Shown here: positions 39,643 to 57,213 of the stretch, piece after piece | Numbering within the stretch: position 1 is the first letter of the stretch | Layout: each line of letters begins with the position of its first letter | From: Fischerella sp. CENA71 | GTDB lineage: Bacteria; Cyanobacteriota; Cyanobacteriia; Cyanobacteriales; Nostocaceae | Direction: 5' to 3' | Length of the DNA stretch: 64,000 bases | Assembly: GCA_024239075.1 (NCBI GenBank) | Contig: JANBVI010000074.1 | Coordinates: forward strand, 153,343-217,342 | Notes under the pieces: generated by a model | What the model was told of the DNA's origin: nothing | Databases searched by the model: none | The model's input: the letters and a program-made list of their open reading frames with translations, nothing else | Translations under genes and position numbers: made by a program

Positions 39643-40050
39643 CTATTTAGTACATTTGCACCGGGGGAAGTTCAGTTTAATACGTGCGACACCTCGGTTA
39701 TTATACGCTTCTGCAAAATTCGGATTCGTCACTTACATTTGGCTTAGGAACAAGGGCAGGCTTGAGACCTCCACCATTTTCTGTGGGCCAATTGGAATAT
39801 TCAATTGAAGCCTGCCCTTGTTCTTGCCTTCGCCCCTCATCACTGCGTTATCAAATAGTTGAATCGCCTGAGAGAATCTTTCTATTTGAAGCTGTATCAT
39901 TCCTATTTGATTATGAACTTCTGCAAAATTAGGGTTGAGTTTTAATGCTTGCTCGAAACATTCTATTACTCCATCCAAATTCCCTGATTTCAAGTGTTCA
40001 AGCCCTTGATTATAGTAGACTTGCGCTTGTTCTAAATTAGCTGTATCCAT
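39643..40050 (-). pseudogene. TPR protein interrupted by a palindromic element, 3' end cut by IS1634
   Basis: The gene starts ATG at 40050 and encodes TPR units (YYNQGLEHLKSGNLDGVIE, ALKLNPNFAEVHNQIGMIQ). After DNAV it is interrupted by the element at 39734-39839. The same frame then continues with TNPNFAEAYNNRGVARI, the next TPR, and ends at TAG 39643-39645 in foreign sequence. The insert adds 111 bases, so the frame is kept, but the element brings a TAA. Ignoring that stop, the gene is a TPR protein truncated near the IS1634 edge. Confidence 0.75.
39734..39839. mobile_element. Palindromic element A (106 bp, 5-bp direct repeats)
   Basis: Direct repeats TCACT flank it (39729-39733 and 39840-39844). 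Removing the element plus one repeat (111 bases) rejoins DNAV to TNPNF of the TPR gene. Inverted arms aggaacaagggcaggctt (39746-39763) and aagcctgcccttgttctt (39808-39825) pair with one mismatch. Outer sequence tacatttggctta at the left and ccttcgcccctca at the right recur in elements at 45.5 and 56.2 kb. No protein is encoded, so it would need help in trans to move. Confidence 0.8.
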
Positions 40051-40110
40051 AATTTCTCAGTAAATAACAAATACTTCTTTGTGCAGAGTAGCTGATTTTT
40101 ATAGCGATCG

Positions 40111-42258
40111 CTATAAGATTGATTGTTCTTGCTCTAAACTCTTTTTTTGTGTTGAAACTGTCTTTTGGATTGTAGTTTCCATCTGGGGTAAATTGCGCCG
40201 CTCAAACTCTCCAGTCTCTGGAATATACGCTACTACAGCTTTTCCTAAAGAACTAGCATAGTCAATGATTGGGGCTGTTTCTATACTATCGATGCCAATA
40301 ACTATATCGTTCGGCTGCTCCAAAAGTTGCATTGCATTTTTTACAGACGTTGCAGCAGATAACTCAATCTTGATATCGCGACGCGATCGCGCTACCTCTG
40401 AAATTGTCTTTACAACAACAGAGGGGCTATCTGACTTGTACGGCGAAGCATCTACGAAATGGACTGTATCATAACCCTGCTCAACTGCGCGGTTAATGGC
40501 ACGTTTAACCATATTACACATTACCTGTTCGGTTCTCTGGTGAAGCGATCGCTCGACGGGTGCTTCAAAAAATACAACAGTGGCGACTCGTTTCTGCTCT
40601 TTTTGACCAACCTGCTGTTGTGTGCTTTCAACATCTGAATACTTGACAGTAGTTGGGTCAATGACTATATCAGCATAACTAGCAGGAGCATGATTAACAG
40701 TACCCGTGAAAGTAAAGCCGTGAAGTTGTCTGCCTATCTCTGCTAGTCTCTGTTGTAAAAAAGTTACTGATTGCTTATTCAAAATTCCCAATACTTTGTC
40801 TCCTACCAAAGCAAATACTTTCGGTGGTTGACGTGGATTAGTCTGTCGCAAGTCAATAGTTATATTAGTTTTCTCTCCTTGCCATTGACGATTCGCAAAA
40901 GCATATTTATCAACACCATCAATCTGTAACTTATTCTCAGGATTTTTCAAGCTGGTAATAACAACGCTAGTACTAGCACAAGAACTAACAGTTGCGCGAG
41001 CTTCACATCCAGGCAATAAATGGGGAGAACGAGTATCAAGTGTACCAAACTTTTTACCTTCTACTATTACCCAACGAGCAGTTTGACTCGGCTCACGGGG
41101 ATGAGGGCCATTCTCAAACTTAATTGCAACTTTTTCACCTTTAAAATTTCTGTTGGCATACTCATTAAATTGAGTACCAATTACCTTCATCTGAGTAAAT
41201 TGCAACTGCTTTAGTTGATTTTCTACCGTCTCCGGGAAAACAGTGAACGCTACACCAGCCCGGCGCATCCCATATTTTTCTTCAGTGTGGCTCACATCAT
41301 GAATAGCCGCTGCTAGCTGCAACCTTTCTGCTTCTGGAGTATTATTTTTTACTGATTCTAGATATTCTTTAGTTTGCTGTTTCAAGGCATCTATCATGCC
41401 ATCACTAATGCCAAAATGAAATTCTACCTTACCCTGTTTAATTGACATTCCAGGTTTGAGGTCATGTTCGGACATAGACTTCATGCTAATTGTGCCAATA
41501 GGAATATCTATCTCTTTACCATCTGGAGTTTGAAATTTGGCTTGAGCAAATAGAGGATGGGGAATTTTTTTAGTTGGTTCTCTCGATAAAATTTTAATAC
41601 TGAGTTCTGAATGATTCCAAAATGTTGGATCTTTTGCTATATCGTAATTAATTAAATTAGTAATTTCTAACTTTTTACCACTTAGTGGAGAAGTAATGAT
41701 CATGTAAGGGCCAGGTTCTAACTTTTTTCTTGACTCCAGTTCAATACGTTGCTTGACAATAGAGTTATAATTTTTCTTTATTTCTTGAGCATATTCTTTC
41801 TGTGAGGAAGTAAACTCTAATTCCGGATAAAAGCTTCTAAATTGTTCAATAGGTCTGGCTATTAGTTTGCACTGCTCAAAGATTTGATTTGTTTGCTTAA
41901 TCATTAAATCAATAGGGCTATAGCCATTGGTCTTCATACCCCTATCTGTAAAAGCTTCTGAATTTTTCTTATCATTCAGCCACTCTACTTCTTTGTAAGC
42001 TGTTATAGCCTGACAGTATTGGATAATTGAATCATCAGGTCGCAATGCACTTTTAGGCCCATCGGTAGCTACTTGTAGTTCATTCCCAAGTTCAGCTACA
42101 CAATCTTTCAATAATTTTTTAAACGACTGCAATTGTTGTTCTATTTGATTCTCATCCTTAGTCCGCACTTGGGTAATCTTATATATTTGGTCTAATATCT
42201 TATTCGGTATTTGCAATTTACCTGTTTCATGTCTGACTAGCACCTTACCTAAATGCAC
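40111..42258 (-). CDS. Large plasmid protein, downstream part of an RNA-polymerase-like gene
   Basis: The open part is 715 codons. I recognise no family over most of it. The C-terminal 170 residues look like an alpha/beta fold (VATVVFFEAPVER, YDTVHFVDASPYKSD, NDIVIGIDSIET, GKAVVAYIPETGE). Reading the same frame upstream gives AEKPDYLKKVLVHLGK, then TAA (42292-42294), then NKIGIIANDIQKNVALQCEID and TAG (42367-42369), then the DFDGD-containing part. So this is very probably the downstream part of one gene with in-frame stops. It is the last gene of a minus-strand plasmid operon. Confidence 0.6.
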   Translation of the reverse strand: MHLGKVLVRHETGKLQIPNKILDQIYKITQVRTKDENQIEQQLQSFKKLLKDCVAELGNELQVATDGPKSALRPDDSIIQYCQAITAYKEVEWLNDKKNSEAFTDRGMKTNGYSPIDLMIKQTNQIFEQCKLIARPIEQFRSFYPELEFTSSQKEYAQEIKKNYNSIVKQRIELESRKKLEPGPYMIITSPLSGKKLEITNLINYDIAKDPTFWNHSELSIKILSREPTKKIPHPLFAQAKFQTPDGKEIDIPIGTISMKSMSEHDLKPGMSIKQGKVEFHFGISDGMIDALKQQTKEYLESVKNNTPEAERLQLAAAIHDVSHTEEKYGMRRAGVAFTVFPETVENQLKQLQFTQMKVIGTQFNEYANRNFKGEKVAIKFENGPHPREPSQTARWVIVEGKKFGTLDTRSPHLLPGCEARATVSSCASTSVVITSLKNPENKLQIDGVDKYAFANRQWQGEKTNITIDLRQTNPRQPPKVFALVGDKVLGILNKQSVTFLQQRLAEIGRQLHGFTFTGTVNHAPASYADIVIDPTTVKYSDVESTQQQVGQKEQKRVATVVFFEAPVERSLHQRTEQVMCNMVKRAINRAVEQGYDTVHFVDASPYKSDSPSVVVKTISEVARSRRDIKIELSAATSVKNAMQLLEQPNDIVIGIDSIETAPIIDYASSLGKAVVAYIPETGEFERRNLPQMETTIQKTVSTQKKSLEQEQSIL

Positions 42259-42366
42259 TAATACTTTTTTGAGATAATCAGGTTTTTCTGCTTAAGGCAT
42301 TGCATCAATTTCACATTGCAGTGCAACATTTTTTTGAATATCATTGGCAATGATTCCAATTTTATT

Positions 42367-42948
42367 CTACATTGCTGATACAGCAATTTCTTCAAATGTC
42401 CCTTGATAAGGAACTTTAGTTTTTTTGACTATATCAGGATAACGATTTGATGGTAAAATTTTCTCTTTAACTTCTGCTGCCAGTTTTGAAAAATCTTCAC
42501 TTGGAGCAAAAGCTAGGAGATCGCCATCAAAATCACACTGCATATTATCCATTGCAGTTTTCGGATGTATGTAAACACATCCATTTAACATTTCTGATAG
42601 ATGTTTGTTTTTTAAAGTAATCACGCCATTTGAGTTAATTAATGGCGAACGAGTCACTATAATTTCTTCTCCCTCTGCTATATAAGGTATACAAATTTCG
42701 TCCAACTCTAAGTCTAAACTTGGTTGAGCAAGACCAGATGTAAACTTAATAGAGCGTCCAGTAGCAATTTCTACCCATTGTTTTCGGGCAAATTCTTGAA
42801 GTTCAGCTACAATTTTGGGATGTTCGATTAGCTGACAATAACCTAACAAATCAGCGCAATCTTCCAGGTTTTCTTTGAAATGGTAAATTGATTCTGGGTA
42901 AGGTATTCTCTGCTAGTCAGATGCAAATCTGATGTTTTTCTTAATCAT
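42367..42948 (-). pseudogene. Upstream part of the RNA-polymerase-like gene, with DFDGD motif and in-frame stops
   Basis: From ATG at 42946-42948 the frame reads 11 codons, meets TAG (42913-42915), and then continues open to TAG at 42367. It includes RIPYPESIYHF, TRSPLINSNGVI, GCVYIHPKTAMD and MQCDFDGDLLAF (42520-42534). The last motif and its setting (R-x-P..., then IHP..., then DFDGD) match the double-psi beta-barrel active-site loop of RNA polymerase beta-prime (NADFDGD). The frame joins the 715-codon frame without shift. It is either a pseudogene with three nonsense codons or a recoded gene. Confidence 0.6.
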
Positions 42949-42963
42949 TTAAACTGTCTCACG

Positions 42964-43188
42964 TTAAGCAGAATATTGGTTTATATACCCAATTGATTTA
43001 CCATTACATGACACATAATTTTTATTGTAATTACCATCAAATGTATATCCAGAAAACTGAGGTGATTCACAATATTTTTTGAACCATTCTTTAGCTGACT
43101 CATCAGTATTAAAAGTTTGGTTGTTTGCCTGTTCTGGAGACAGCTGACAAACTTCTTTACTATACAAACTACATATATATTTTGGCAT
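42964..43188 (-). CDS. Small protein of unknown function in plasmid operon
   Basis: The 74-residue protein (MPKYICSLYSKEVCQLS...) has a good ribosome site (aaggag, 9 bases before ATG) and sits between two same-strand plasmid genes. It has four Cys and many aromatic residues, with FDGNYNKNYVSCNGKSIGY near the end. I do not recognise a family. Confidence 0.6.
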   Translation of the reverse strand: MPKYICSLYSKEVCQLSPEQANNQTFNTDESAKEWFKKYCESPQFSGYTFDGNYNKNYVSCNGKSIGYINQYSA

Positions 43189-43206
43189 TGGCTATTTCTC
43201 CTTAGA

Positions 43207-43926
43207 TTACGGCTCAACAAACTTGCGCTTTTCGGGCGGAACAGCCCAAATTAAACAATGTCCAGACTTAGCTTTGCGTCCATAGTAGGAAAGAACAACA
43301 CCTAACTTTTGGGTGTCCTTAATACAGTTTCCATTATCTAGATACCCCCTGTTCCAATCAATCAAATCTTTGGCGAACTTCCCTTCCTTTGACGTCGCCC
43401 ACTTCAGAGCCTCCAACTCCTTCCAAGTTAAGGAGCTTGACTGCACCTGTGTATATCCCCCACCCAACATTCCCATAATCGGACTAGTAATCCAACTAGG
43501 CACAACCAAGCCCATTATGAAGCCAAAGCCCAAGATTAACAACAACAAGATAGTAGCGGGAGTCACGCTTGTCAGAATATTCTTACCTTCTTGTAATAGC
43601 GTTTTGTGAATTAAAGCATAGGCAGAACGCTCGATCGCTACTTTCTGTCGCTCGACAGTTACTTGTTCCACTAGTTCTAGGGTTTTAACTAAGTCTTGGT
43701 TCCAATGCTGGAAAAGCGCCTGCAAAGTGTCCGGCGCATTTTCTAACATTGCTTCTAGCTTTCCGGTAGCAATCAATATCAAAAATAACGGGTCATCTTG
43801 AGACAGCCCACAACTAAAAGCAAAATCCACTACCCGTCGCTTGAAAGCTTCACTTTTTCCCTCTAACGCTTCGGCTAGCAATTCATTCGTGGCATGAAAG
43901 TTTTTATCTATTTTAGTCTCACTCAT
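43207..43926 (-). CDS. DUF6753-like plasmid membrane protein
   Basis: The 239-residue protein has a soluble N-terminal helical half (SCGLSQDDPLFLILIATGKL), a coiled coil (about 80-110), one long hydrophobic segment (about 122-143, TPATILLLLILGFGFIMGLV) and a C-terminal domain with WKELEALKWATSKEGKFA and LGVVLSYYGRKAKSGHC. This layout recalls DUF6753 proteins of cyanobacterial plasmids; I am not certain of the number. It lies 34 bases downstream of the ParA/MobD-like gene in the same operon, and its product probably sits in the membrane. Confidence 0.6.
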   Translation of the reverse strand: MSETKIDKNFHATNELLAEALEGKSEAFKRRVVDFAFSCGLSQDDPLFLILIATGKLEAMLENAPDTLQALFQHWNQDLVKTLELVEQVTVERQKVAIERSAYALIHKTLLQEGKNILTSVTPATILLLLILGFGFIMGLVVPSWITSPIMGMLGGGYTQVQSSSLTWKELEALKWATSKEGKFAKDLIDWNRGYLDNGNCIKDTQKLGVVLSYYGRKAKSGHCLIWAVPPEKRKFVEP

Positions 43927-43960
43927 TTACATTGTCCCATTTTTTCTACGTGTCAGACTC

Positions 43961-45079
43961 TCATTTAACCAAACCTGTTTCCTTAAACGCTGCATATGCT
44001 TGTTTGAGAAAATTCTTCACCCTCTGCTTTGATACCACCCCCAACTCATGGTGAGCTAGAGCATCCTCAAAAGTTGCTCCCAACCTATCAACCTGGTTAC
44101 GCTCCCAGAAGGGAAACTTGGGTAAGTCCATCACAGTGAAATTATATTTAGTTTTAGCTGCTATAAACTCTGGCATTTCATCTATATACTTCCAGTCGTC
44201 GCACATACCCCAATTTCTTACGAATACATGGAGCATCTGATTTCCTAAATCTTCCAAAGACTCCAGAAAGAAATTTACCGAATCAACCCCACCAGTACAC
44301 ACAAACCATTTCACAAAAGTAATTGAATTCTCCTTACCCAACTCAATCAAATCATTGCGTTGTATCCATTGAGTTACATTCGTGTAAACCTGAGCAGGTA
44401 GATTCACAATCACCGATTTTTCAAAAGCCAAGTCAAATATTTTGTCTGCTTGTTGAGCTTGCTTTTCATCATCACTAAAAAAAGCAGTCTCAACACCAGA
44501 ATAAATTTTGCTAATGTCCTTGTTGCTGATATCTGCATCTACAATTGCTGTATCTAACCCTATCGAAATACAATACTCGATAAATGCTCTTGACAAGAAC
44601 GACTTCCCACAACCTCCTTTTTCACCATCTACAAGGTGGATAGTTGTAGATTGTTTTATAGATGTTGGTATTACCTTCCCAGAGGCTAGTTCTTTCTTGA
44701 CAGACAAGTCAACTTTTGTTAGAGAAGCAGGTTCTATTGGTTCATCCAGATTCTTTTTGTCATCTCCATTTGATATCGATTCATTAGAAGATGTTGGTTC
44801 TTTCGTAACAGATAATTCAGCTTCTATTAAGAGAGTAGGCTCTATTTGTTCATTTTGAGTTGATTCAATTTCAAGTTCAACTTCCGAATTATTAAGTTCA
44901 ACTTCAACATCATCACCCGTTATTCTTTCCTCTGTTTCTGCTGTTGAGTTAGAAAAAGAATTGATTCGTGAGTGCATTTTTCTCAATAGTCCTTCTTGAG
45001 CCTTATGTATACGAACGGAAGGTTTATTAGTCTTTTTTTTCGGTCTACCTCTTTTTCTTTTCCTGCGTATAAATTTCAT
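43961..45079 (-). CDS. ParA/MobD-like P-loop ATPase with AT-hook-like N-terminus
   Basis: I start at ATG 45079 (MKFIRRKRKRGRPKKK), 13 bases after the parR stop, giving 372 residues. The basic start carries an AT-hook-like KRGRPKKK, followed by an acidic, low-complexity linker (about 40-150). The C-terminal domain is a deviant Walker ATPase (TIHLVDGEKGGCGKSFLSRA, then TAIVDADISN). This architecture resembles MobD/VirC1/TraL-type plasmid ATPases that assist mobilisation or partition. Its place between parMR and membrane-protein genes agrees. Confidence 0.7.
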   Translation of the reverse strand: MKFIRRKRKRGRPKKKTNKPSVRIHKAQEGLLRKMHSRINSFSNSTAETEERITGDDVEVELNNSEVELEIESTQNEQIEPTLLIEAELSVTKEPTSSNESISNGDDKKNLDEPIEPASLTKVDLSVKKELASGKVIPTSIKQSTTIHLVDGEKGGCGKSFLSRAFIEYCISIGLDTAIVDADISNKDISKIYSGVETAFFSDDEKQAQQADKIFDLAFEKSVIVNLPAQVYTNVTQWIQRNDLIELGKENSITFVKWFVCTGGVDSVNFFLESLEDLGNQMLHVFVRNWGMCDDWKYIDEMPEFIAAKTKYNFTVMDLPKFPFWERNQVDRLGATFEDALAHHELGVVSKQRVKNFLKQAYAAFKETGLVK

Positions 45080-45092
45080 GTTTTCGGAATTT

Positions 45093-46052
45093 CTACAAAA
45101 AATCAACCAATCCTGTATCGTCGTAAGCATACTCTCCAGCAAGATGGCGAAGAGTATCAAGGGACGGCGTACTTGATTGAGGTGTTTTGGAACAAGGCAA
45201 TGATATTGCTATGGGGGGAGATTGAATTGTTTGTGGAGCATCTTCTAAGCCAACTAACTCCAAAATATCTTTTACTTGTCTTCTTAAAACCTGTACCGCA
45301 GAATGTGCTACGCCCCGCATCTGTTCGGAGTCACTAGAACTATCTTCCACTAAAGCATAAGGTAGCCAAAATGACCGTAAAGCCAACAGTAACATCTCAG
45401 TCTTACTGCTGATTTGATTGTCTTGGATGTATTGCATCAAACGTACATCATATTGGTTTCGTGGCTGGTAACGCCAGTAAAAGGAAAACATACTTGAGTG
45501 AGATGTTTTGCAACAAGGCAATGATGTTGCCGCATTTGGCTTGGGAAACAGAGCCGGACTTCGTTGTATTGTTGAGTTGCACCCTTGGCGTGTCGCTAGG
45601 TCTATAAAGTCCGGCTCTGTTTCTGACCTTCGCCTCGCAGGTATAGTTGAAAAGCCCGCTTTGTTTATCGCGGAGGCGATTTCGCCCGACTCCATCTCTT
45701 TTATTCGCCTCGTTGCTATGGGAGGAGACTGAATTGTTTGTGGAGCATCTTCTAAGCCAACTAACTCCAAAATATCTTTTACTTGTCTTCTTAAAACCTG
45801 TACCGCAGAATGTGTTACGCCCCGCATCTGTTCGGAGTCACTAGAGCAATCTTCTACTAAAGCATAAGGTAGCCAAAATGACCGCAAAGCCAAGAGTAAC
45901 ATCTCAGTCTTGCTACTAACTTGATTGTCTTTGATATACTGCATTAAACGTACATCATGTTGGTTTCGTGGCTGGTAACGCCAGATAAAATTTATTCTGA
46001 CTGACATGAAATTGCACCTGTACCAATCATGTTCTGTTGAGGCTGAAATCAT
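45093..46052 (-). CDS. parR: ParR-like partition protein with internal tandem duplication and an in-frame palindromic insertion
   Basis: The ATG overlaps the parM stop (ATGA), as in ParMR operons. The 319-residue product contains the same ~107-residue module twice (RYQPRNQ-DVRLMQYI, SSKTEMLLLALRSFWLPYAL, LRRQVKDILELVGLEDAP). ParR is normally one such RHH-type DNA-binding module that links centromere DNA to ParM filaments. Between QSPPIA and SLPC of the first module lie 62 extra residues encoded by element B; the second module has the uninterrupted junction. The identification rests mainly on gene context and size. Confidence 0.7.
   Translation of the reverse strand: MISASTEHDWYRCNFMSVRINFIWRYQPRNQHDVRLMQYIKDNQVSSKTEMLLLALRSFWLPYALVEDCSSDSEQMRGVTHSAVQVLRRQVKDILELVGLEDAPQTIQSPPIATRRIKEMESGEIASAINKAGFSTIPARRRSETEPDFIDLATRQGCNSTIQRSPALFPKPNAATSLPCCKTSHSSMFSFYWRYQPRNQYDVRLMQYIQDNQISSKTEMLLLALRSFWLPYALVEDSSSDSEQMRGVAHSAVQVLRRQVKDILELVGLEDAPQTIQSPPIAISLPCSKTPQSSTPSLDTLRHLAGEYAYDDTGLVDFL
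45531..45712. mobile_element. Palindromic element B (182 bp) inserted in frame in parR
   Basis: TTGC flanks the element on both sides (45527-45530 and 45713-45716), while the empty homologous site in the second parR module reads gatattgctatg. Net gain is 186 bases (62 codons). A perfect 17-bp inverted pair is gaaacagagccggactt (45545-45561) with aagtccggctctgtttc (45607-45623). Left end cgcatttggcttggg and the motif ccttcgcctcg recur in other copies. The right third (from about 45638) is extra sequence ending in a second ttcgcctcg. Confidence 0.85.
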
Positions 46053-47176
46053 TTTTGTACCTGTTGGGAAAAATACAAAAACACACTATAGACATCAGCT
46101 AGTCTACTTCCCAAAGAAAACTTATCAACTTGTTTGGGTATATCAGCACCCACTCCCCATAAACAGGGTGTTCCGGGATAGTGTGAATTCAATTCTTTTC
46201 TCAAGTAATCTGCTGTTCCACCGCAGAAAAGAATTTCATCTACTATGCTTCTATTAATCACCTGATCCAGCCAACTTGTGAGTGCAGCAGTATACTCCCT
46301 TCTGGCAAGCTTGACCGCCTTTTGGAGAAGCTGTAACTCGTTTTGTCTATTAGTGTTAACAGTGCTTCTCAACAATCGAATAAAGGGTGTGGTAGATATA
46401 TCGCTTCCTGCTGCTACTATTGCTGGAGCAAGCTCACAAGCTGTTTGTCCCGAAGTTTTTGCTACTACTGTTTCTAAAAGTCGAATCATCCCCAAATCCG
46501 AAGTCTTGCCATTAGCTTTCAATCTACCCTTATCGCTGATCAATACACTTGCGTTTCGATAACCCACCATTAAAAGAGCGATCACTTTTGTTTTGAGAGT
46601 CTCTCCTACCTTCTTTTGGTATGCCAGGTATATTCCTGCTCCCTCTGGTAAGCATTTGAATTCTACCAATTCCACCTCCATTCTTCCTGTTGGTGTTGTG
46701 TAATTAGCAAGTACTGTTTGAAGTTGATGCAGAAAACTTTCTTTGTTTTCTAACTCCCCTGGTGGTAACAAACAAGCAAGCGCCAGTTGAAATCTTGCTC
46801 CTAATCTCAGCTTTTGTGATATTGCCCAAACCGCTGCTAGGGTTTTAGCGATCGCTCGTTCGTACTTTAACTCTTTCAAACCAGCATTGGCGTAATAGTT
46901 ATTTTTCGCCAAATAACCCACAGCAAAGGTGTCATGTGCATAGCTTACCCATGCGATATTTTCCGGTTCTGTAGTACCCAAAGTCTCTGTTGAATGGGAA
47001 GCAACTGACTCAAACGGTACTTTTAATACTTCCGGTTCCATCACCAACAATCCCGGATTATTTTGGTGTAATTTAGTGTAAATTCCTTTGGTTGTACTCC
47101 CACCAAAATCTAAAGTCAAAATCAATAGGGAACTAGATTTTTTTTCGGTTCTTACTTTTTGGCTACTGTCAGTCAT
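46049..47176 (-). CDS. parM: ParM/StbA-like actin-family plasmid segregation ATPase
   Basis: The 375-residue protein has actin-fold motifs: phosphate 1 loop LTLDFGGSTTKGIY, phosphate 2 region VIALLMVGYRNASVLI and adenosine motif ILFCGGTADYLRKEL. Plasmid ParM polymerises between ParR-bound parC sites and pushes plasmid copies apart. It is first in the operon; parR overlaps its stop. Direct repeats resembling parC lie just upstream (47215-47305). This is a type II partition system and marks the region as plasmid-derived. Confidence 0.82.
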   Translation of the reverse strand: MTDSSQKVRTEKKSSSLLILTLDFGGSTTKGIYTKLHQNNPGLLVMEPEVLKVPFESVASHSTETLGTTEPENIAWVSYAHDTFAVGYLAKNNYYANAGLKELKYERAIAKTLAAVWAISQKLRLGARFQLALACLLPPGELENKESFLHQLQTVLANYTTPTGRMEVELVEFKCLPEGAGIYLAYQKKVGETLKTKVIALLMVGYRNASVLISDKGRLKANGKTSDLGMIRLLETVVAKTSGQTACELAPAIVAAGSDISTTPFIRLLRSTVNTNRQNELQLLQKAVKLARREYTAALTSWLDQVINRSIVDEILFCGGTADYLRKELNSHYPGTPCLWGVGADIPKQVDKFSLGSRLADVYSVFLYFSQQVQK

Positions 47177-47705
47177 AAAAGTATAAAAAAAATGAACTCA
47201 TGTATGAAATACCTGGAGCAATTTGGAGCAAAATGGAGTCGATTCATTAGCGTAGCTTATTGTTTTTTGAGTAATTTTTCGCCAAATCTTGCTCCAAATT
47301 GCTCCACACCAAAATTCATTCTTAAACAATGGCTGAAAAACCTTGCTCATAAAGCTTACAGACTTTTTACTCAGTGTTTTTTCGTGAATATAATCATTAC
47401 CAATCTCTGGAAACATCCTTTTTTTCTCAAACTTATAAGCGCGTTGATTTTTTCACTTTGTGAAACTTACTACACATTTACTCAAAATTATTGTCTGAAA
47501 AATGATTTCGGGGATATTTTTTCCCTCCTGTTAACAGAATAAAAATAGACATTATCTCTATTTATTAATTTATAATCTTATCATCAATTACAAAACACGT
47601 AGAACAAAAAGAGACAAAAATGTATTTTCAATTACACTAATTTTTCCGCAATTCTATCCCAAAATCTACTCAACTAATCAAGCAATAATACGCACTCTTC
47701 GTTCC
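47177..47705. other. Intergenic region between divergent parM and relaxase genes
   Basis: This 529-bp spacer holds the parC-like repeats in its first 130 bases, then an AT-rich stretch. The location between parM and a MobV relaxase makes it a candidate for both partition centromere and origin of transfer. No protein-like frame is seen. Confidence 0.5.
47215..47305. promoter_or_regulatory. parC-like repeats upstream of parM
   Basis: Three direct 10-bp units stand in a row (ggagcaattt, ggagcaaaat, ggagtcgatt; 47215-47244). A 17-bp exact inverted copy of the first, ttgctccaaattgctcc, lies at 47289-47305. In ParMR systems arrays of 10-11 bp direct repeats ahead of parM form the centromere and autoregulatory operator bound by ParR. 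Position 38 bases ahead of the parM start fits. Confidence 0.7.
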
Positions 47706-49352
47706 ATGCCCTTTGCTATCTGTAGAATACAAAAAATCAAAGATTGGGGTTCTCTAAATGGTAATGAATCCCATACTGCAAGAATTAAAGACATACCCAA
47801 TGCCAACCCAAATGTCGATAATCTTCGACTCATTGGCACTCCTGATGACCCTAGCTTGGCAACCTTAGTTAAGAACAAAATCGGAGAGCAGAAAATTCGT
47901 TCCAATGCTGTTTTGGCAGTGGAATTATTATTGAGCGCTAGTCCCGATTTTTTTCGTCCTGATGACCCATCAAAGGCTAGTTACTACCTACCTGAGCGTT
48001 TAGAGGATTTTCAACAAGCTACCCGTTGTTGGCTGAATCAGACTTTTGGCGATCGCATAGTCCGAGCTGAATTGCACTTGGATGAATCGACCCCCCATAT
48101 CCACGCATATCTTGTCCCCTTAGATGAATATGGCAAACTCAACTGCCGGGGACTATTTGGTGGATATGAAAAACTTTACCAGCTGCAAGATAGCTATGCA
48201 GCAGCAATGGCATCTGTTGGATTGGAGCGCGGTATCAAAGGCAGTAGAGCCAAGCATACAAAGATAAACAAATATTATGCCGCTGTTAACCAAAGCTTTG
48301 AAACTCTTAATTTAGAAAGCTTCTTCCCACAAACCCAAGTTGGAGAATCAAGCGAATCTTATCGACAACGCACTATTGAACTTCTTCGTCCCCAGTTGGA
48401 AATGATTAATCATCAACTAGCAGATCGCACTCGCTTGCTCAGACAGAAAACACAATTAGAACAAACTGCAATAAATAGCGAAAAACTAAGGCAACAACTA
48501 GAGCGTGAATTACACTCAAGACTACAACAAACCAAGCAATTGCAGGACTTACCACCCGTACAAGTGGCTTATGAGTTGGGCTTGAATCATTCCCACCAAC
48601 CTCATGTTGATGCCCTTGACTTAGTAATGCAAATTAACCAATATACTTTCGACCAGGCGAGTGCTTGGTTATATGAGCGCTTTGGCACTGAAGGAATGCT
48701 ACAAGCTGTTATCCATCATGCTAGAACCCAAGCTTTAAATATTGCTCAATCTATTTGTTTTCAACCATTTGTCCCACCTCAACAAAACGCTGCTCACTGG
48801 TCAGAAGTCGAGCATTACCTTACACTCAAGCGCTGTCTTCCTCAAAAGTTAGTACAAGCTCTATACAAACATCGCTTAGTTTACGCAGACTCTTTTGGAA
48901 ATGGGGTGTTTACAGCACGTAATCTTGCTTTGGAGGTGACTGGAGCATACTTGCACCCCACCAATATCAATGAGAATGTTTTTAATTTGTATTCCACAAG
49001 CAGGCGATCGCAAGGTTGGTTTCATATCAGTATGGGCGGAACTAAAGACTCTCCTACAAAAACAGCAATAGTTGTCTCATCACCCATTGAGGCATTGTCT
49101 TTAGCAACGTTGAACGTTCCCCACAATCATCGGACACTATATCTGACTATTGATAGTGAGTACGCCAAAATTCCGGTTGAATTTCTGCAAAATGTACCAA
49201 CTGTGGTTATTGCTATGCCCACTACAGCCGCTCGCTCAGTTAAAAAAGTTTTACCACAGGCTATACATCTCAAGCCAAATACTACTTGGAACGAACAACT
49301 AAAGAATCAGAACTTCTATCATCAAAAACCAGTTGAGGAGATGGAAAGATGA
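47706..49352 (+). CDS. MobV-family relaxase fused to DUF3991/TOPRIM-like region
   Basis: The 548-residue protein begins with a MobV (Pre/Mob) relaxase: MPFAICRIQKIKDWGSLNG at the N-terminus and the metal/histidine motif ELHLDESTPHIHAYLVPLD (His124, Glu127, His131, His133). A coiled coil (about 215-290) follows. The C-terminal part has CLPQKLVQALYKHRLVYAD, GWFHISMGG and VSSPIEALSLATL, typical of DUF3991 plus a TOPRIM-like fold found in plasmid primase-like proteins. It probably nicks oriT for mobilisation and may also help start replication of the transferred strand. Its stop overlaps the next ATG. Confidence 0.85.
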   Translation: MPFAICRIQKIKDWGSLNGNESHTARIKDIPNANPNVDNLRLIGTPDDPSLATLVKNKIGEQKIRSNAVLAVELLLSASPDFFRPDDPSKASYYLPERLEDFQQATRCWLNQTFGDRIVRAELHLDESTPHIHAYLVPLDEYGKLNCRGLFGGYEKLYQLQDSYAAAMASVGLERGIKGSRAKHTKINKYYAAVNQSFETLNLESFFPQTQVGESSESYRQRTIELLRPQLEMINHQLADRTRLLRQKTQLEQTAINSEKLRQQLERELHSRLQQTKQLQDLPPVQVAYELGLNHSHQPHVDALDLVMQINQYTFDQASAWLYERFGTEGMLQAVIHHARTQALNIAQSICFQPFVPPQQNAAHWSEVEHYLTLKRCLPQKLVQALYKHRLVYADSFGNGVFTARNLALEVTGAYLHPTNINENVFNLYSTSRRSQGWFHISMGGTKDSPTKTAIVVSSPIEALSLATLNVPHNHRTLYLTIDSEYAKIPVEFLQNVPTVVIAMPTTAARSVKKVLPQAIHLKPNTTWNEQLKNQNFYHQKPVEEMER

Positions 49353-49890
49353 TCGGTTGTCCACATTGCAAATCAAATCAACTTCGATCTGTATCTGCTA
49401 TTTGGTCACGCATTTCTCTTTTTCACGCATTGGGCAACCCTCGCAAAGCGCCTGCTTAGGCGCTTTGCTCCCTCACAAATAAATTTTGGGACTTGTCGAA
49501 TAATCTAATAGGGTTGCCCAATGCGTGAACACATTGAATCCCTCGTCGGAGCAAACATATAATACAGAGCTTTCTCTTATGAGTTCTGTATTCTTTTCTA
49601 GACTCAGCGCAAGTGGAACAACCAGTTCTGCTTTAGCCCAAAGATTAGCTCCACCACAAAAGAAAAAACTCTCATGGTTTGTAATTATCCTCATTATTTT
49701 GTTGTTCAGTTTTATCAAACCAACATTTAGCTTGGGAACGGTAATTTTAATAGGATTAATAGTTATTGTGCCGATAAAAATTTGGTTTACATACTACAAC
49801 ACCATGATTTATCCAAAACAGATGAATAAATGGCGTTCTACCTGGTATTGTGCTACTTGCGGTGCTGTATCAGTCATTAGTCTTGACTAA
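49349..49890 (+). pseudogene. Zinc-ribbon membrane protein split by a hairpin element
   Basis: ATG at 49349 overlaps the relaxase stop and starts MIGCPHCKSNQLRSVSAIW. The frame then enters a hairpin element and stops at TAG (near 49456). After the element a different frame continues the same type of protein: SALAQRLAPPQKKKLSW, two hydrophobic segments and WYCATCGAVSVI. Intact relatives have N-terminal CxxC, a Ser/Thr-rich stretch, LAQRLAPPxKP and C-terminal CxxC. The insertion shifts the frame, so the gene is probably broken. Confidence 0.65.
49424..49527. mobile_element. 104-bp hairpin element with perfect 17-bp terminal inverted repeats
   Basis: Ends cacgcattgggcaaccc (49424-49440) and gggttgcccaatgcgtg (49511-49527) are exact inverted copies. 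A second hairpin, aaagcgcc-tgctta-ggcgcttt (49446-49467), lies inside. The element lies in the zinc-ribbon gene. It differs in sequence from the family at 39.7, 45.5 and 53.5 kb but shares the design. Confidence 0.75.
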
Positions 49891-49916
49891 ATTTCCATAT
49901 TTTTTAAGGAGAACAG

Positions 49917-50009
49917 ATGCTATTTTCGCTACAGAATTCAACCAGAAATAAAAAGGCAGAAGGCAGTCCCGATGAAAAAATTTCACAACCATACATGAAA
50001 ATGTGGTAG
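49917..50009 (+). CDS. Possible 30-residue peptide or cut gene start
   Basis: A clear AAGGAG lies 8 bases before ATG at 49917, and the frame encodes 30 residues (MLFSLQNSTRNKKAEG...). It ends at TAG just where the IS110-like region begins. It may be the start of a gene cut by that insertion. I do not recognise it. Confidence 0.3.
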   Translation: MLFSLQNSTRNKKAEGSPDEKISQPYMKMW

Positions 50010-50574
50010 CTTCCATTCAAGGCTGACACATTCATAGGTTGTTCCTCAGTAGAGCATCTTTAGCCTGAAAGGCAGTCGAACCCGGATACCCAGAGGCATA
50101 GCCAATTGTCGCTACTACACTCACAGCAGTTGCAGTAAGCACGCAAGTCAGAATCGACCAAAAGAGGTATCCACGTGCTAGCCCCCTATCAATTTGACGG
50201 TAAGTTGTAGGTCAAGAATATGCAGGTAGTCTACACCCGTTGTGCTGGCGAGCGATGTACATAAGAAGACCGTAGTTGCTTGTGTAATAACCCCTTCAGA
50301 ATCGGGAGAATGGCATAAGCAGATTCGTACATTTAGCACGATGACCAAAGACTTGTTAAATTTATCTGACTGGTTAACAAGTCATGATTGCAGCCATGTA
50401 GCAATGGAGAGTACTGGGGAATACTGGCGACCAGTATTCAACATCTTAGAAGGAAACTTTGAAGTCATGTTGGTGAATGCTCGCCACATGAAAGCAGTAC
50501 CAGGACGCAAAACAGACATCAAAGACAGTTTTAAGTTATGTAATTACTGCGGAGGATACATTGATGTCATGTAA
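50010..50574 (+). mobile_element. Remnant of an IS110-family element
   Basis: GTG at 50242 starts a 110-residue fragment of an IS110 recombinase N-terminus: LASDVHKKTVVACVITPSE, HVAMESTGEYWRPVFNIL and PGRKTDIKDS (RuvC-like DEDD residues). It stops after KDS with an unrelated tail, so most of the RuvC domain and the Tnp20 domain are missing. The ~230 bases ahead of the start (50010-50241) are noncoding; in IS110-group elements this region encodes the bridge RNA. Confidence 0.75.
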
Positions 50575-50603
50575 ACAATGTGAAATGAAATAACAGTAAT
50601 CGT

Positions 50604-50807
50604 TTATCCTGTTGTTGTTGTTCTTTTTGCATATTCCATATAATCCGCTATATTAGCTGAAATAGATGCTGCGGATCTTCTGATTTGCTGTACCATCCCA
50701 TACAACTCATATGAAGGAAATAGTTTAGTCAAAAAATAACACTTTTCGGCTATATCCATGCCTTTCTGCCAAATTTTTAAGTCTTTAAAATCATTTATTT
50801 CTGACAT
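50604..50807 (-). pseudogene. N-terminal fragment of a four-helix bundle (S23-type) protein
   Basis: The 67 residues show the start of the S23/four-helix-bundle family: DFKDLKIWQKGMDIAEKCY and MVQQIRRSAASISANIAD. Full-length relatives are about 120 residues and continue ANIAEG...; here the frame ends in YAKRTTTTG. The fold is shared with DGR Avd, but there is no reverse transcriptase nearby. Confidence 0.65.
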
Positions 50808-50868
50808 TTAAAAACCTCTTAATTTATTCATCTGTTCCCTGTTCCCTGTTCCCTATTCCCAGATGTAG

Positions 50869-52716
50869 TTACCAAATTTTTGAAATCCGTTCAAAGACTT
50901 GCTGTCGCCACAGAGTAACTTCTGGTAAACTTGAATTTAATATTAAGCAGGGTTCCCACGATAATTTAGCGTCATCAAGCTCACCTAATACTTCCTGAGT
51001 TCGCGCCAATAAACAATAACTATCTGCTCTTTGTGGGTCAAGTTCTATAGCTTTTTGTAAACTATTTTTCGCCTGAATATACAGCTTTTTTTCCAAAAGT
51101 GACCAACCTAAGTTCTTGTACAACGCTGCCTGTAACTGGGTATCAGAAGTTTTTTGTAAGCCTTTTAGGGCTAGAAGTTCGGCTTTAGTATATTCACCAT
51201 TTCTGTTCTCTAATCTGGAAAGATTATTCATAGCATGTACAGCGGCATTGCCACCTTCTTTTATAGCTAATAGATAATGTTGTGCAGCTTTTTCATATTT
51301 CCCTTGGTCATCATAGAAGCTTCCTATTCCATAGTGCGCTGACCAGTTAGAGGGCTGTAATTTCAATGCTGAAGAATAATTGCTCTCAGCACATTTAAAA
51401 TCGCTTAACTCCTGACATACTAACGCTAAATTATTATATGCATACACATCGCTTGGATTATATTTTATAGCCTTAGTATAGTATTTCTTAGCTATTTGGG
51501 GACGAGGCAGATTACGAGAAGCTTCACTAAAATAAAAAGCAGAGATTTCATAAGTTGCACTCTTGTTAAGCTTGATTGCTGTATCAAAGCTTTTTTGGGC
51601 ATCTGTAAACCGATTTTCAAGTTCTGCTTTTTTACCCTCACTTAAAAAATAATTTGCTACCCAAGGTAGTGATGCTCTATAAATACCAAAAATGCTTAAT
51701 ATACTTAATACAATTGCACTTATTTGAAATGGCTTCGCTTTGATTATACGATTGATCTTCGATTGCAGAGGTAAGCGTTCTAAACGTTGCAAAATTACCT
51801 GACAATTTGGTGGACGCTTTGCTGGAAATGGAGCCATCAAATCATCTAGTAAATCTGCAAGAGGTTTGTCGAGATGGGGGGCTTTATGTCTCCAAATGAG
51901 ATTTCCTGTTTCTGGATCTGTTTTTAATTTGATTAACTCTTCGCCTGTAATCAGGCGAACAAAAGTTCGACCTAGTGCGTAAAAATCAGACTGGGGTATA
52001 GCTTGCCCATTAATTTGTTCTAGTGGCGAGTACAGGGGCGTTCCTAAGCGAGTTGTTTGATATCTACTCTCGCTGCCTAACCCTGTAGAAGTTCCACCAT
52101 TGACACTAATTTTTGCCAAATAAGTATCAGTAATTTGTCTAGTTCCACCAAAATCTATTAAAGCTAGCTGTCCATGCTCTTGAACAATAATATTGCTAGG
52201 TTTAATATCGCGGTGAAAGAATGTCGAACGATGAACTGTATCCAGAATTTTCACCAATTGTTTTAGCCAATCAACAGCTAATGATTGAGATATTTTCCCA
52301 TAATTATTTATCCATGACTCTAAATTTTCTCCTGACATTTTTTGCATCACTAAACAATGCAATTCTATAGAGCTTTGATTAGGATAAAAAGTAAAATAAT
52401 CATCTATTGTCGAAGTAGGAACTCCTGGATGACGAATCACTTGCAATGCAAGAGCCTCCCTTTGTATCAACTCAACTCGCTTCGGCTCCGAAGCCCATTT
52501 CAACACCTTCATGAGCCGAATTTCTCTCACTGGATGCCATTTTGTTCCTAAATCTTCTACCTCAAAAATGTCAGTGTAGCTATAAGAGTCATCACGCAGT
52601 GGGCGAAGTAAGCGAATACGATTATTAATTAGTAAAGAAGTTCCACATGCTGAACACTGTTCAGCATCGTCCGGATTAGAACGCTCATTACAAAGTGGAT
52701 TGATACAATAGCTCAT
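50869..52716 (-). CDS. Ser/Thr protein kinase with N-terminal zinc ribbon and C-terminal TPRs
   Basis: The 615-residue protein begins with a zinc-ribbon (CxxxxC...CSACG, residues 4-25). A protein kinase domain follows (about 35-310) with FFHRDIKPSNIIV and LALIDFGGTRQ. A transmembrane segment (about 330-350, FQISAIVLSILSIFGIYRA) separates it from six or more TPRs (SYCLLARTQEVLGELDDAK type). This is the common cyanobacterial receptor-like kinase layout. It is monocistronic. Targets are unknown. Confidence 0.88.
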   Translation of the reverse strand: MSYCINPLCNERSNPDDAEQCSACGTSLLINNRIRLLRPLRDDSYSYTDIFEVEDLGTKWHPVREIRLMKVLKWASEPKRVELIQREALALQVIRHPGVPTSTIDDYFTFYPNQSSIELHCLVMQKMSGENLESWINNYGKISQSLAVDWLKQLVKILDTVHRSTFFHRDIKPSNIIVQEHGQLALIDFGGTRQITDTYLAKISVNGGTSTGLGSESRYQTTRLGTPLYSPLEQINGQAIPQSDFYALGRTFVRLITGEELIKLKTDPETGNLIWRHKAPHLDKPLADLLDDLMAPFPAKRPPNCQVILQRLERLPLQSKINRIIKAKPFQISAIVLSILSIFGIYRASLPWVANYFLSEGKKAELENRFTDAQKSFDTAIKLNKSATYEISAFYFSEASRNLPRPQIAKKYYTKAIKYNPSDVYAYNNLALVCQELSDFKCAESNYSSALKLQPSNWSAHYGIGSFYDDQGKYEKAAQHYLLAIKEGGNAAVHAMNNLSRLENRNGEYTKAELLALKGLQKTSDTQLQAALYKNLGWSLLEKKLYIQAKNSLQKAIELDPQRADSYCLLARTQEVLGELDDAKLSWEPCLILNSSLPEVTLWRQQVFERISKIW

Positions 52717-52862
52717 ACCAATTCAAAATTCAAAATTAAGAAAGTGAGACTCAGCATAGGTTTTAGAGTTTTAATCTGTATCATATTTTTCGTAAAATGG
52801 TATCATAGCAGTAGTTCAAAAACTTTCTATTATTAAAATAACTATTAAATTTTGGACTCATC

Positions 52863-52990
52863 AGGCCTTTCCAAAAAATAAAATGAAAGCGCCCTCGCGT
52901 TCCCACCTGGGTGGGAACGCTTACTAGTCCTTAGATTGAGCCACAATATATTTGATAGGGCTGGACATTTTATTTCTTTGAGATCCCTTA
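52863..52990. repeat. Family-2 hairpin element H
   Basis: The 399-bp gap after the kinase gene contains this element. Ends are ggcctttcc...aaataaaatg and cattttatttctttgagatccc. Inside is the perfect palindrome gcgttcccacctgggtgggaacgc in two halves (gcgttcccacc / ggtgggaacgc, 52897-52920). Elements with the same ends lie at 54106, 55797 and 57123. No gene is seen in the rest of the gap. Confidence 0.6.
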
Positions 52991-53115
52991 ACAGTTTCTT
53001 ACAATCAACAGATAAATCACATTATTCTTTCTATTAAGAGTTAAAAGTTTCCTGACTTGAAAAAGGCAGAACGCAGAAGGAAAGAAAGTTTTTCATTTGT
53101 TCTGGTGTACCCAGT

Positions 53116-54054
53116 TCATGATGGCTGTTCTTTATTCACATCAATTTTGAATACTTCGACCAACTGCTGCAAAGCGTTTGCTGCTTCTGTTCTTCTTTCT
53201 GAAGAGCTAAAATATTTATTTGATTGCAGCAAGTCTTGAGCAACCTGTTTAATTGTTAAACCTAGTATTTGCGAATTTTTTTGCTGAAATTCTAGCTCAA
53301 CAGAAATGGATTCCAATAGCTCATCCATTTGATTAGATGTGTCTACAATTTTTCTTAGTTCACATTGAGTTTGTTTTGTTATCTCAGTTTCTTCCAATAA
53401 TTCATGTATTGCTTGTTTACCAAAATTGACGATTTCCAATGTTTTTATATAAATATTTTCTACATTTTTTTCGATTTCTTTTGTTGATTGAGTTGCTTGA
53501 TTTGATCTAGCATGAAACCAAGAAAAAGAGCCAGGCTTTATATATATTGGACAAACCCACTGATTAATCGGTGTGGTGGCACGGCGCAAAGCTTTGCGCT
53601 GTGCAAAGCCTGGCTCTTTTTCTAATCGTTTTATCCCTGATAATAAAGTAATCTGTTCAGCTATTTTTGCAAAAGCCTGCCCTGATCTTCCTATACGAGA
53701 AGCCTCAACACTCGTGTTAACTGCTAAAACATTAATTTGCAGAGAAATTTGGTTGATTATTGAAATTATTGGAAAAATCTGTTGAGAAGATTCGTTCAGA
53801 AACTTTAACCTGTTAACTATTTGTGTCAGGCTGGAGTGCAATTTCAAATTATTAGAAACAGTGGATTCCATTGCCAAGCTAGATGCTTTGGCATCGCTAG
53901 AAGCAATTTTTGCAAGCGTTGCGGCTTGCTCTGCACTCTCTGCCACAGATTCAATAGACGCAACTATTTGATCTAGCGATTCCAAACAATTGGTCACTTG
54001 AATCGTTTGTTTGAGATTTTGATCTAATAATGCTGTTACTACGTTTTGAACCAT
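53116..54054 (-). CDS. Soluble chemoreceptor-like (MCP signalling) protein with in-frame palindromic insertion
   Basis: The 312-residue helical protein contains a divergent methyl-accepting signalling hairpin: IFPIISIINQISLQINVLAV then NTSVEASRIGRSGQAFAKIA, matching the conserved Q-x-N-x-L-A-x-N-A-x-x-E-A-x-R-A-G tip. There is no membrane span or ligand domain. Directly after EQITLLS, where the family continues with a helix, 45 codons from element C are inserted; the helix then resumes with NQATQSTKEIEKN. The insert keeps the frame, so a protein with a non-native loop could still be made. Function as a CheA partner is inferred. Confidence 0.7.
   Translation of the reverse strand: MVQNVVTALLDQNLKQTIQVTNCLESLDQIVASIESVAESAEQAATLAKIASSDAKASSLAMESTVSNNLKLHSSLTQIVNRLKFLNESSQQIFPIISIINQISLQINVLAVNTSVEASRIGRSGQAFAKIAEQITLLSGIKRLEKEPGFAQRKALRRATTPINQWVCPIYIKPGSFSWFHARSNQATQSTKEIEKNVENIYIKTLEIVNFGKQAIHELLEETEITKQTQCELRKIVDTSNQMDELLESISVELEFQQKNSQILGLTIKQVAQDLLQSNKYFSSSERRTEAANALQQLVEVFKIDVNKEQPS
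53507..53637. mobile_element. Palindromic element C (131 bp, TGAT direct repeats) in a chemoreceptor-like gene
   Basis: TGAT flanks it (53503-53506 and 53638-53641); removal of element plus one repeat (135 bases, 45 codons) restores LLS-NQATQ. The arms agaaaaagagccaggcttt (53521-53539) and aaagcctggctctttttct (53605-53623) are a perfect 19-bp inverted pair. An internal palindrome gcgcaaagctttgcgc lies at 53583-53598. It has no stop in the gene frame. Confidence 0.8.
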
Positions 54055-54105
54055 AGTTAAAAATTGTTATTGATTTGAAACAAGAGGCTCTGCACTTTCT
54101 TAAAG

Positions 54106-54224
54106 TACTCCAAATAATAAAATGCCCAGCCGTCGCTTTCGCCGTTTAGGCGAAAGCGCCTAAATCTTTAGGCTTGGCCAAAATATATTTAATACGGCGC
54201 TTGCTTTTATTACTTGGAAAGGCC
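54106..54224. repeat. Family-2 hairpin element I
   Basis: Located between two minus-strand genes. Left part ctccaaataataaaatgcc, right part acggcgcttgcttttattac then ttggaaaggcc. Internal inverted motif cgctttcgcc / ggcgaaagcg. Shares ends with elements at 52863, 55797 and 57123. Confidence 0.6.
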
Positions 54225-54227
54225 TTA

Positions 54228-55757: not shown

Positions 55758-55796
55758 ATTGTTTAAATAACCTCGCTGCTGCTTAAGGCTAATCCT

Positions 55797-55911
55797 CGAA
55801 ATAAAAGCAAGCGCCGTCGCTACGAGCAGAAGGGCGAAAGCACCGCTCATACTTGGTAAGGCACCAAAATATTTTTAATACGGCGCTTGCTTTTATTTTT
55901 TGGAGATCCCT
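55797..55911. repeat. Family-2 hairpin element J
   Basis: Perfect 18-bp arms aataaaagcaagcgccgt (55800-55817) and acggcgcttgcttttatt (55880-55897), with a right end ttggagatccc shared with element H. It lies just 5' of the STAND gene, so its transcript or DNA hairpin could influence that gene. Confidence 0.65.
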
Positions 55912-55997
55912 ATGAAAGAAAATCACACCTCATATCACTATTTTTAGTATTTTCAAAGCTACTATACTGGAAAGTTTTGTACAAGCATATTACCAAG

Positions 55998-56042
55998 AAA
56001 TAAAGCAAGCGCCTTGCGCTGTGCAAGGCGCTTGCTTTATTT
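55998..56042. repeat. 45-bp perfect hairpin K
   Basis: Perfect 19-bp arms aaataaagcaagcgccttg (55998-56016) and caaggcgcttgctttattt (56024-56042) with a 7-base loop. The arm is close to that of element J (ataaaagcaagcgcc), so it may be a deletion form of the same family. The long 55758-56695 gap otherwise holds elements J, D and E and a possible decayed minus-strand frame (REILNVGKIYKVAQFCTDLS). Confidence 0.7.
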
Positions 56043-56166
56043 TAGTTGGGTCGAAGGGGGGTATTATCCCAAGCTCATCCCACCCCTTGGATAAATCTGT
56101 GCAAAACTGGGCAACCTTATATATTTTGCCCACATTTAATATCTCTCGTGTCGGTGGCAGCAATCG

Positions 56167-56264
56167 CATTTGGCTTGGGAAAAAGAAGCAGGCTTGTATT
56201 GGTATTATCCGATTGGCCCAACGAATTGTCTTTGTTGAAGCCTGCTTCTTTTTCTTTCCTTCGC
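56167..56264. mobile_element. Palindromic element D
   Basis: Arms gaaaaagaagcaggctt (56179-56195) and aagcctgcttctttttc (56238-56254) pair perfectly over 17 bp. The left end cgcatttggcttggg and right end ccttcgcctc match element B. GCAA occurs on both sides and is a possible direct repeat. Confidence 0.75.
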
Positions 56265-56344
56265 CTCGCAAGGGGGTTTTGTAGTTTGGAATACAATTCA
56301 TCCGAGAATCTTACCCCCTTGCTGCAAAGGTGCGGGAGCCGAAA

Positions 56345-56430
56345 CCTAGAAATAGGGCAGGCTTAATAGACCAGACCCTAAGCACTATCAGCATATCGAC
56401 ATCACCCAGAAGCCTGCTCTATTTCTTTAG
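56345..56430. mobile_element. Palindromic element E
   Basis: Arms tagaaatagggcaggctt (56347-56364) and aagcctgctctatttctt (56410-56427) pair over 16 of 18 positions, one mismatch being compatible with G-U pairing. The arm sequence is a further variant of the family at 39.7, 45.5, 53.5 and 56.2 kb. It lies in noncoding sequence. Confidence 0.7.
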
Positions 56431-56695
56431 GCAATTTTCCAAGCCCAGTTTTGCATACTTTTTATGAAACCCCTGGAAGGAGTGGGCTTTCCCGCCGATT
56501 TTCTGTAATTGTCTTTACATTTCTTTATTTTTTCTGCTTGCTACGGATAGTCTAAATGCTGTATATAAAAAAAATACTGTTTATTTCAATCAGAGCTTAA
56601 ATATCTCCAACAACCTCTCAATTGTGTCATTCAAAACAGATACGTCGGAAAACTCCAGGGTGCAGTATCTCTATCAATGAAATACAGGGGTTTTC

Positions 56696-57120: not shown

Positions 57121-57122
57121 CA

Positions 57123-57213
57123 TGGCCTTTCCAAATAATAATATGCCAGTGCCGTTGCTTTCTTCTGGCGAACGAAAGTGCTGCTCATACTTGCAGATCC
57201 CCAAGCACGACTC
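57123..57213. repeat. Family-2 hairpin element L, partial
   Basis: Left end ggcctttccaaataataatatgcc matches element I in reverse and H directly; right end agatccccaag matches H and J. The internal stem is eroded (gccgttgctttc / gaaagtgctgctc). Confidence 0.5.

Follow-up and report, generated by a model that had tools for sequence, protein, structure and literature searches.

Evidence for a mobile palindromic insertion kept in frame in cyanobacterial genes, comparable to the palindromic elements of Rickettsia

Protein-coding mobile palindromes are, to our knowledge, known mainly from Rickettsia. The small dispersed repeats (SDR) of Nostoc punctiforme, said to have been described by Elhai et al. 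in 2008, are reportedly 21–27 nt long, occur in Nostocales, show compensatory changes and are nested in their own copies. The Rickettsia palindromic elements (RPE) are described as dispersed hairpin elements of about 105–150 bp that carry an open reading frame and lie in frame in unrelated genes, and coding palindromes have also been reported for Wolbachia and Methanocaldococcus jannaschii (available parts of PMC2229807, PMC10969869 and PMC2996958). In the parts of these sources that were available, the RPE are presented as selfish elements tolerated as a translated peptide (PMC2229807, PMC10969869), and their target duplications are entered as '?' in a table of PMC2229807. Palindromes in the coding genes of Magnusiomyces mitochondria are described as bypassed and untranslated, and the same source sets the coding palindromes in the mitochondria of Nematomorpha apart from other protein-coding structure elements (available part of PMC6649704). 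The nearest cyanobacterial mentions, in the available parts of the respective sources, are the PARCEL coding palindromes, tandem repeat domains recorded also in Prochlorococcus marinus, a cyanobacterium (PMC2996958), the MITEs of Anabaena sp. 90, which lie inside ORFs and are reported to cause pseudogenes (PMC3542288), and the ORFs within MITEb and MITEe of Anabaena PCC 7120 (PMC10969869). A literature search for a cyanobacterial description returned, in the accessible portions of the sources, none recognised as the element treated here, and an earlier mention is possible.

The window, i.e., the whole stretch of 64,000 nucleotides from Fischerella sp. CENA71 that was analysed, carries in a parR-like gene an element which, like the RPE, is a dispersed palindrome of roughly 100–150 bp and is found as an in-frame, stop-free insertion in unrelated protein genes. 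The reading of a mobile palindromic insertion kept in frame and, by analogy, comparable to those of Rickettsia is supported.

The insertion in the parR-like gene

The insertion comprises 182 nt at 45531–45712 between two copies of TTGC, which brings its total to 186 nt, or 62 codons. Its parts and surroundings, in window coordinates, are:

45093–46052, minus strand: host gene, encoding a two-module parR-like protein of 319 aa, named from its actin-like neighbour
46049–47176, minus strand: neighbouring actin-like (ParM/StbA-type) gene, from NCBIfam and plasmid record annotations
45202–45213, plus strand: empty site in the other parR-like module, reading gatattgctatg without the insert
45527–45530, plus strand: TTGC, left flanking direct repeat
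45531–45637, plus strand: complete hairpin element of 107 bp, with left end CGCATTTGGCTTGGG, 17-bp stem, 45-nt loop and right end CTTCGCCTCG
45545–45561, plus strand: left arm of the perfect stem, 17 nt, 100% complementary
45607–45623, plus strand: right arm of the perfect stem, 17 nt
45638–45712, plus strand: right half of an apparently older element, with loop, right arm and right end ATTCGCCTCG, the left half missing
45713–45716, plus strand: TTGC, right flanking direct repeat

The host reading frame is stop-free across the 186-nt insertion, which sits in the linker between the two modules, and these contain a 277-nt direct repeat that is 93% identical at a spacing of 507. The original prediction had proposed a 62-codon in-frame insertion between TTGC repeats, a module duplicated within parR, an empty site kept in the duplicate and perfect inverted arms of 17 bp, and the sequence agrees on all four, with the insertion at exactly the position given. 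Its 182-bp palindromic unit stands as a real insertion, but the palindrome extends over the first 107 nt only and the rest is the right half of a second element.

No Pfam or NCBIfam family was assigned to the parR-like protein at curated cut-off, and the label parR is given by position only, beside the actin-like gene. The latter matches the NCBIfam FcmB model at E 1.9e-13, which is below cut-off, and seven plasmid records matching the region annotate it as ParM/StbA (three records) or as hypothetical (four). On the reverse strand the insertion folds at −62.4 kcal/mol, better than 200 of 200 dinucleotide shuffles (z −3.49), and an Rfam covariance search of window positions 40000–60000 gave no match inside 45531–45712 at E ≤ 5. 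The Rfam matches in the window were all below gathering scores and all concern hairpins other than the element studied. Two long G/C-rich hairpins of GCAGGGAG-type repeats, at 57817–57997 and 58868–59063, gave such matches to microRNA families.

The segment 45531–45712 is a compound of two elements and not one palindrome. The complete element scores 103 bits with the covariance model R1, this copy being one of the 12 from which R1 was built, and 71 of the 74 nt at 45639–45712 are identical to the loop and right half of a simple element (L075) found at the corresponding site of the Pelatocladus maniniholoensis HA4357-MV3 MAG, which belongs to the same GTDB genus. In that genome the simple 107-bp element occupies the orthologous position between TTGC repeats as in the window and is spanned by an open frame of 304 codons. 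Module B of the gene lacks the insert in both genomes, and the nine other aligned parR-like homologues are single-module and lack it as well. Nested copies at one loop position were found with both junctions in L112 (the same as L142), with the left junction in L079 and with the right junction in L004. Given these loop-nested copies and the 71/74 match to the sister-genome element, the window copy is most simply read as an old element whose loop received a second one, followed by loss of the stretch between the near-identical left ends, the steps presumably having occurred in that order.

Dispersal, ends and flank duplications of the family

The hairpin element belongs to a dispersed family of the Nostocaceae (GTDB). 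Model R1 gave 33 matches in its own genome at E ≤ 0.01, both strands counted, and at E ≤ 1e-4 it matched at least 24 of 218 GTDB Nostocaceae genomes and at least 10 of 56 genera, both counts being lower bounds (17 candidates per genome scored, under stricter filters). The left-end pattern with one mismatch allowed occurs in 26 of 100 related genomes, partly through chance matches; the right end is absent from the four inspected outside the genus, G051 aside (L083–L086), and from three in the P. maniniholoensis MAG (L077–L079, of which L079 later proved part of a nested copy), and the match L072 sits in an ordinary gene. The both-end pattern picked out 21 stretches in the named genomes, 19 of them in Fischerella or Pelatocladus, and two both-end matches, in an alphaproteobacterial MAG (L120) and a Thermosynechococcaceae MAG (L121), were rejected as chance matches with no hairpin by eye. 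In Fischerella muscicola, 16 near-identical copies (L054–L069) lie within a larger dispersed repeat, flanked by ccttgaagccgctcttac...gagcgtctacgcgtctgtaca, and since they share one larger repeat the composite itself has multiplied. Six single-ended near-matches in the own genome (L008–L013, inspected for ORFs and over 140 nt each) lie in ordinary sequence, and no autonomous partner or transposase was found among them.

The elements are mostly 104–109 bp in size. The end motifs originally proposed are conserved as CGCATTTGGC...CGCCTCG in the subfamily of the window, but other subfamilies differ in their ends: those of other genera have CGCAT...C(T/C)CG in common, with an inner end helix varying between GGC/GCC, GTC/GAC and GCC/GGC (by eye). 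Both orientations of the loop relative to the ends are found, such as L073 versus L081 and L074 versus L082 (by eye). An unpaired CATTT is conserved near the left end and the hairpin is internal; the left end CGCATTTGGC was compared with the right end read inward, CGAGGCGAA, and the aligned copies showed by eye no terminal inverted repeat beyond CG...GGC.

Covariation supports the stem: among 12 sequences, 12 of the 21 stem pairs have changed on both sides, stem cells are paired in 98.0% against 84.9% in shuffles, and both-side cells number 32 against 8.5. Of the five pair measures, that of further pair types does not stand out clearly from the shuffles (18 against 15.5, with 56 of 500 shuffles reaching the observed value). 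The perfect arms of 72 copies comprise 60 distinct sequences with a median of 17 nt (range 8–20), a perfection inflated by the search itself because R1 rewards paired stems. When 39 copies were aligned with MAFFT (A3), the stems were misplaced, and the model derived from it (R2, 7 pairs) was discarded.

Flank duplications occur above chance. After 27 rows with atypical ends and 8 repeats or near-identical copies were taken from 76 rows, 41 copies were left, and flanks match over at least 4 bp in 17 of them, against a permutation mean of 3.4 and a maximum of 11 in 2000; before the removal of two repeated insertions (L075, which is the window's, and L179, which is L177's) the count was 19 of 43. 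By eye, the duplicated sequences vary around GTNA, TTRC and TTAY, and since the terminal bases of the element are C and G, their exact length is ambiguous (3–5 bp). The other 24 of the 41 copies have no flank match of at least 4 bp, and many boundaries are therefore old or ambiguous. Further copies with direct repeats in other genomes, without which the original prediction would have fallen, are thus present. The window itself holds four more members:

39734–39837, plus strand: another copy, not flanked on both sides by long open frames, R1 match
53509–53633, plus strand: divergent relative with atypical ends (L154), in frame inside an MCP-like gene at 53116–54054 (minus strand), R1 E 1.3e-4, ORF open
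56165–56268, plus strand: another copy, not flanked on both sides by long open frames, bordered by GCAAT and GCAAG with no exact duplication, one of the 12 in R1
56335–56439, minus strand: further copy with variant ends, R1 match

The MCPsignal match of the MCP-like gene stops just ahead of the insert at 53509–53633. A different, proline-rich in-frame hairpin segment with arms GGGAACAGGGA...CCCTGTTCCC lies at 54426–54611 inside the gene 54228–55850 (minus strand), which resembles a P-loop ATPase by eye, and this segment is perhaps another repeat family kept in frame.

Reading frame and host genes

The frame test covered 76 full-length copies, the window's included, from the full-length R1 matches in the 218 genomes and further own-genome copies, with reverse-strand duplicates removed, the 16 F. 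muscicola composite copies reduced to one and the duplicate locus L207 left out. The longest open stretch on each side was taken with phase ignored, and the flanks had to reach at least 60 and at least 40 codons. Long open frames on both flanks were observed for 31 of the 76 rows, or 27 after removal of four repeated insertions (L075, L202, L187 and L216). The phase is the same across the element in 26 of these 27 (the exception is L222), which at a chance of one third has a probability of about 7e-12 by hand arithmetic, and 21 of the 27 are stop-free as well, 18 antisense and 3 sense to the element. A stop lies inside the element despite the kept frame in L003, L145, L192, L175 and L182, of which L145, L192 and L175 are probably not genes. 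The copy at L003 800–906, in frame by its length and with the stop inside, lies in a group II intron reverse transcriptase gene (by eye). Among the 45 rows without long open flanks on both sides, 18 are in phase and at least 5 are genic; the short-flank gene cases L074, L206, L174, L177 and L183 are in frame and open. L179 appears out of phase by the flank rule and is, on inspection, the in-frame insertion of L177 with a different gene end.

The insertion length modulo 3, a measure put forward originally, came out as predicted. Where the duplication spans 4 bp or more, the length is divisible by 3 in all 12 genic copies (111, 108 or 186 nt; genic status assigned by hand) and in 4 of the 8 remaining ones. 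Elements in genes have 58 of 174 frames open against 32.3 in shuffles, an excess that is partly circular and not an independent test, genic copies being partly recognised by openness, and those outside genes have 59 of 246 open against 39.7, which is 1.5-fold.

The hosts identified by Pfam or NCBIfam include a tyrosine integrase (L081); a DDE transposase (L073) and a DDE_Tnp_1-associated transposase (L174); TnpB-type proteins (L080, L183, L215 and L217); an IscB-type RRXRR/HNH gene (L206); DUF3854 (L151), DUF3987 (L185) and T5orf172 (L193) proteins; the plasmid replication protein CyRepA1 (L229, and L204 below cut-off); a DUF1392 protein (L177), an SLH/OprB porin (L213) and a CHAT-nSTAND1 protein (L186); and a TrbI-like protein (L076, below cut-off). 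IscB/TnpB-type proteins are RNA-guided nucleases. In L217 the element lies within the peptide of another element and both keep the TnpB frame (by eye). A copy was also observed at the start of an IscB-type RRXRR/HNH gene (L170). The family scan, which left out L201, L074, L003 and L182, gave no known family for the hosts L203, L209, L172 and L181 (Pfam and NCBIfam) and L197 (Pfam alone).

Empty sites were observed for three genes, the parR-like, the CHAT-nSTAND1 and the DUF1392 gene. The CHAT-nSTAND1 gene carries a 108-nt insert with flanking GTCA that is absent in three close homologues of sister species. The DUF1392 protein WP_146110973.1 of plasmid pNPM1 from Nostoc sp. 'Peltigera membranacea cyanobiont' N6 carries a 37-residue insert that is absent in three of four homologues, on pNsp_b of Nostoc sp. 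ATCC 53789 and on two plasmids of Nostoc sp. UHCC 0302; the fourth, on pNsp_c of ATCC 53789, carries a different insertion, with stops in it, at nearly this position, and this region therefore tolerates insertions generally. Homologues of the OprB porin of L213 do not align at the insertion.

Explanations and comparison with known systems

On the observed copies, flank duplications, empty sites, preserved frame, covarying stems and nesting, the element is very probably a non-autonomous mobile palindrome whose genic copies survive, as a translated extra peptide, when they land in frame; translation of the insert and selective loss of out-of-frame copies are what we infer. Such a palindrome, typically of 104–109 bp, would carry no gene for its own movement and would create a short target duplication of 3–5 bp, the two together usually amounting to 111 nt, or 37 codons, and in some cases to 108, with at least one frame often free of stops. 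In-frame copies would add a translated surface or linker peptide to the protein and so survive, and other genic insertions would be lost. In the window, a first element would have entered the linker between the parR-like modules, a second would then have inserted in its loop at the position known from L142, and recombination between the near-identical left ends would have removed the left half of the first, the remaining 182 bp being once more in frame.

This account overlaps with another, on which our judgement is evenly divided, namely that the element is an ordinary MITE of some insertion sequence and its in-frame genic copies are mere survivors with no suitability to coding sequence; the two part on the question of adaptation to genes. 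The non-genic lengths are mixed modulo 3 (4 of 8 are multiples), 45 of 76 rows have no long open flanks on both sides, though at least 5 of them are genic, the 16 F. muscicola copies sit in one larger dispersed repeat, and open frames outside genes exceed the shuffles by only 1.5-fold, all of which suits an ordinary MITE, but the missing terminal inverted repeat, the usual size of element plus duplication, which is a multiple of 3, and the small look at L008–L013, in which no partner transposase was found, speak against it. The hairpin might also be skipped by ribosomes, as in the 'byp' elements, which we take the Magnusiomyces palindromes to be, or be removed at the RNA or protein level, leaving the insert absent from the protein. 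Very stable hairpins within coding sequence would fit such skipping, as would the bypassed, untranslated palindromes of Magnusiomyces mitochondria (available part of PMC6649704), but skipped elements need neither frame nor openness, yet 26 of 27 are in frame and 21 of 27 are open in the frame of the host, against about 19% per frame from shuffles (32.3/174), and we consider skipping very improbable. That the 62 residues are an ancestral parR linker lost from the other module, the outcome under which the original prediction was to be given up, is hardly credible: an insert at the same site is common to two genomes, but it is contradicted as an ancestral domain by the nine single-module homologues without it, by the flanking direct repeat, by its length, which differs between the two genomes (107 bp in the sister copy versus 182 bp), and by the presence of the element in unrelated genes.

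The mobile palindrome kept in frame may, as a tentative extension that we hold to be possible but doubtful, belong to a Nostocales superfamily of gene-adapted mobile hairpins, with insertions whose overall length is mostly divisible by three, open frames, perfect stems of changing sequence and self-targeted nesting, which would go on supplying proteins of plasmids, transposons and the cell with new in-frame peptide segments; the stems would then stay perfect through pairing-templated repair or through movement as a folded single strand. In the cyanobacterial family target duplications can be demonstrated, named plasmids supply empty sites, and two related genomes have the simple and the compound form at a single site; mobility, translation and the effect on the host protein thereby become testable, and the family would offer a natural record of mobile DNA adding new protein segments.

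The element resembles MITEs (Correia/NEMIS, ERIC, RUP, Nezha and those of Anabaena sp. 90) in being small, non-autonomous and hairpin-forming, with target duplications (17 of 41 copies with at least 4 bp, and empty sites) and sometimes in-frame fusions, whereas it has no clear terminal inverted repeat and its hairpin is internal, Nezha being likened by description. It shares with the SDR the occurrence in Nostocales, the compensatory changes and the nesting in its own copies, features of the SDR as reportedly known, but at about 107 bp it is far from their reported 21–27 nt. PARCEL likewise consists of palindromic coding DNA; by its description in the available part of the source it differs from the element seen here, which is dispersed as single insertions, bears end motifs and is flanked by duplications. 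As far as the available part of the source describes them, the Magnusiomyces palindromes also lie in coding genes, whereas the frame here is kept and open, and those of Nematomorpha also form perfect stems in protein-coding sequence, but in animal mitochondria. The RPE agree with the cyanobacterial element in size, dispersal, open frame and in-frame insertion, a likeness that is functional and drawn from descriptions; the element differs in its cyanobacterial hosts, in its demonstrable target duplications, in using both orientations and several frames with a nested in-frame insertion, and in that many of its hosts are plasmid, IS or TnpB/IscB genes. By this analogy, the cyanobacterial element is best read as functionally like the Rickettsia palindromic elements.
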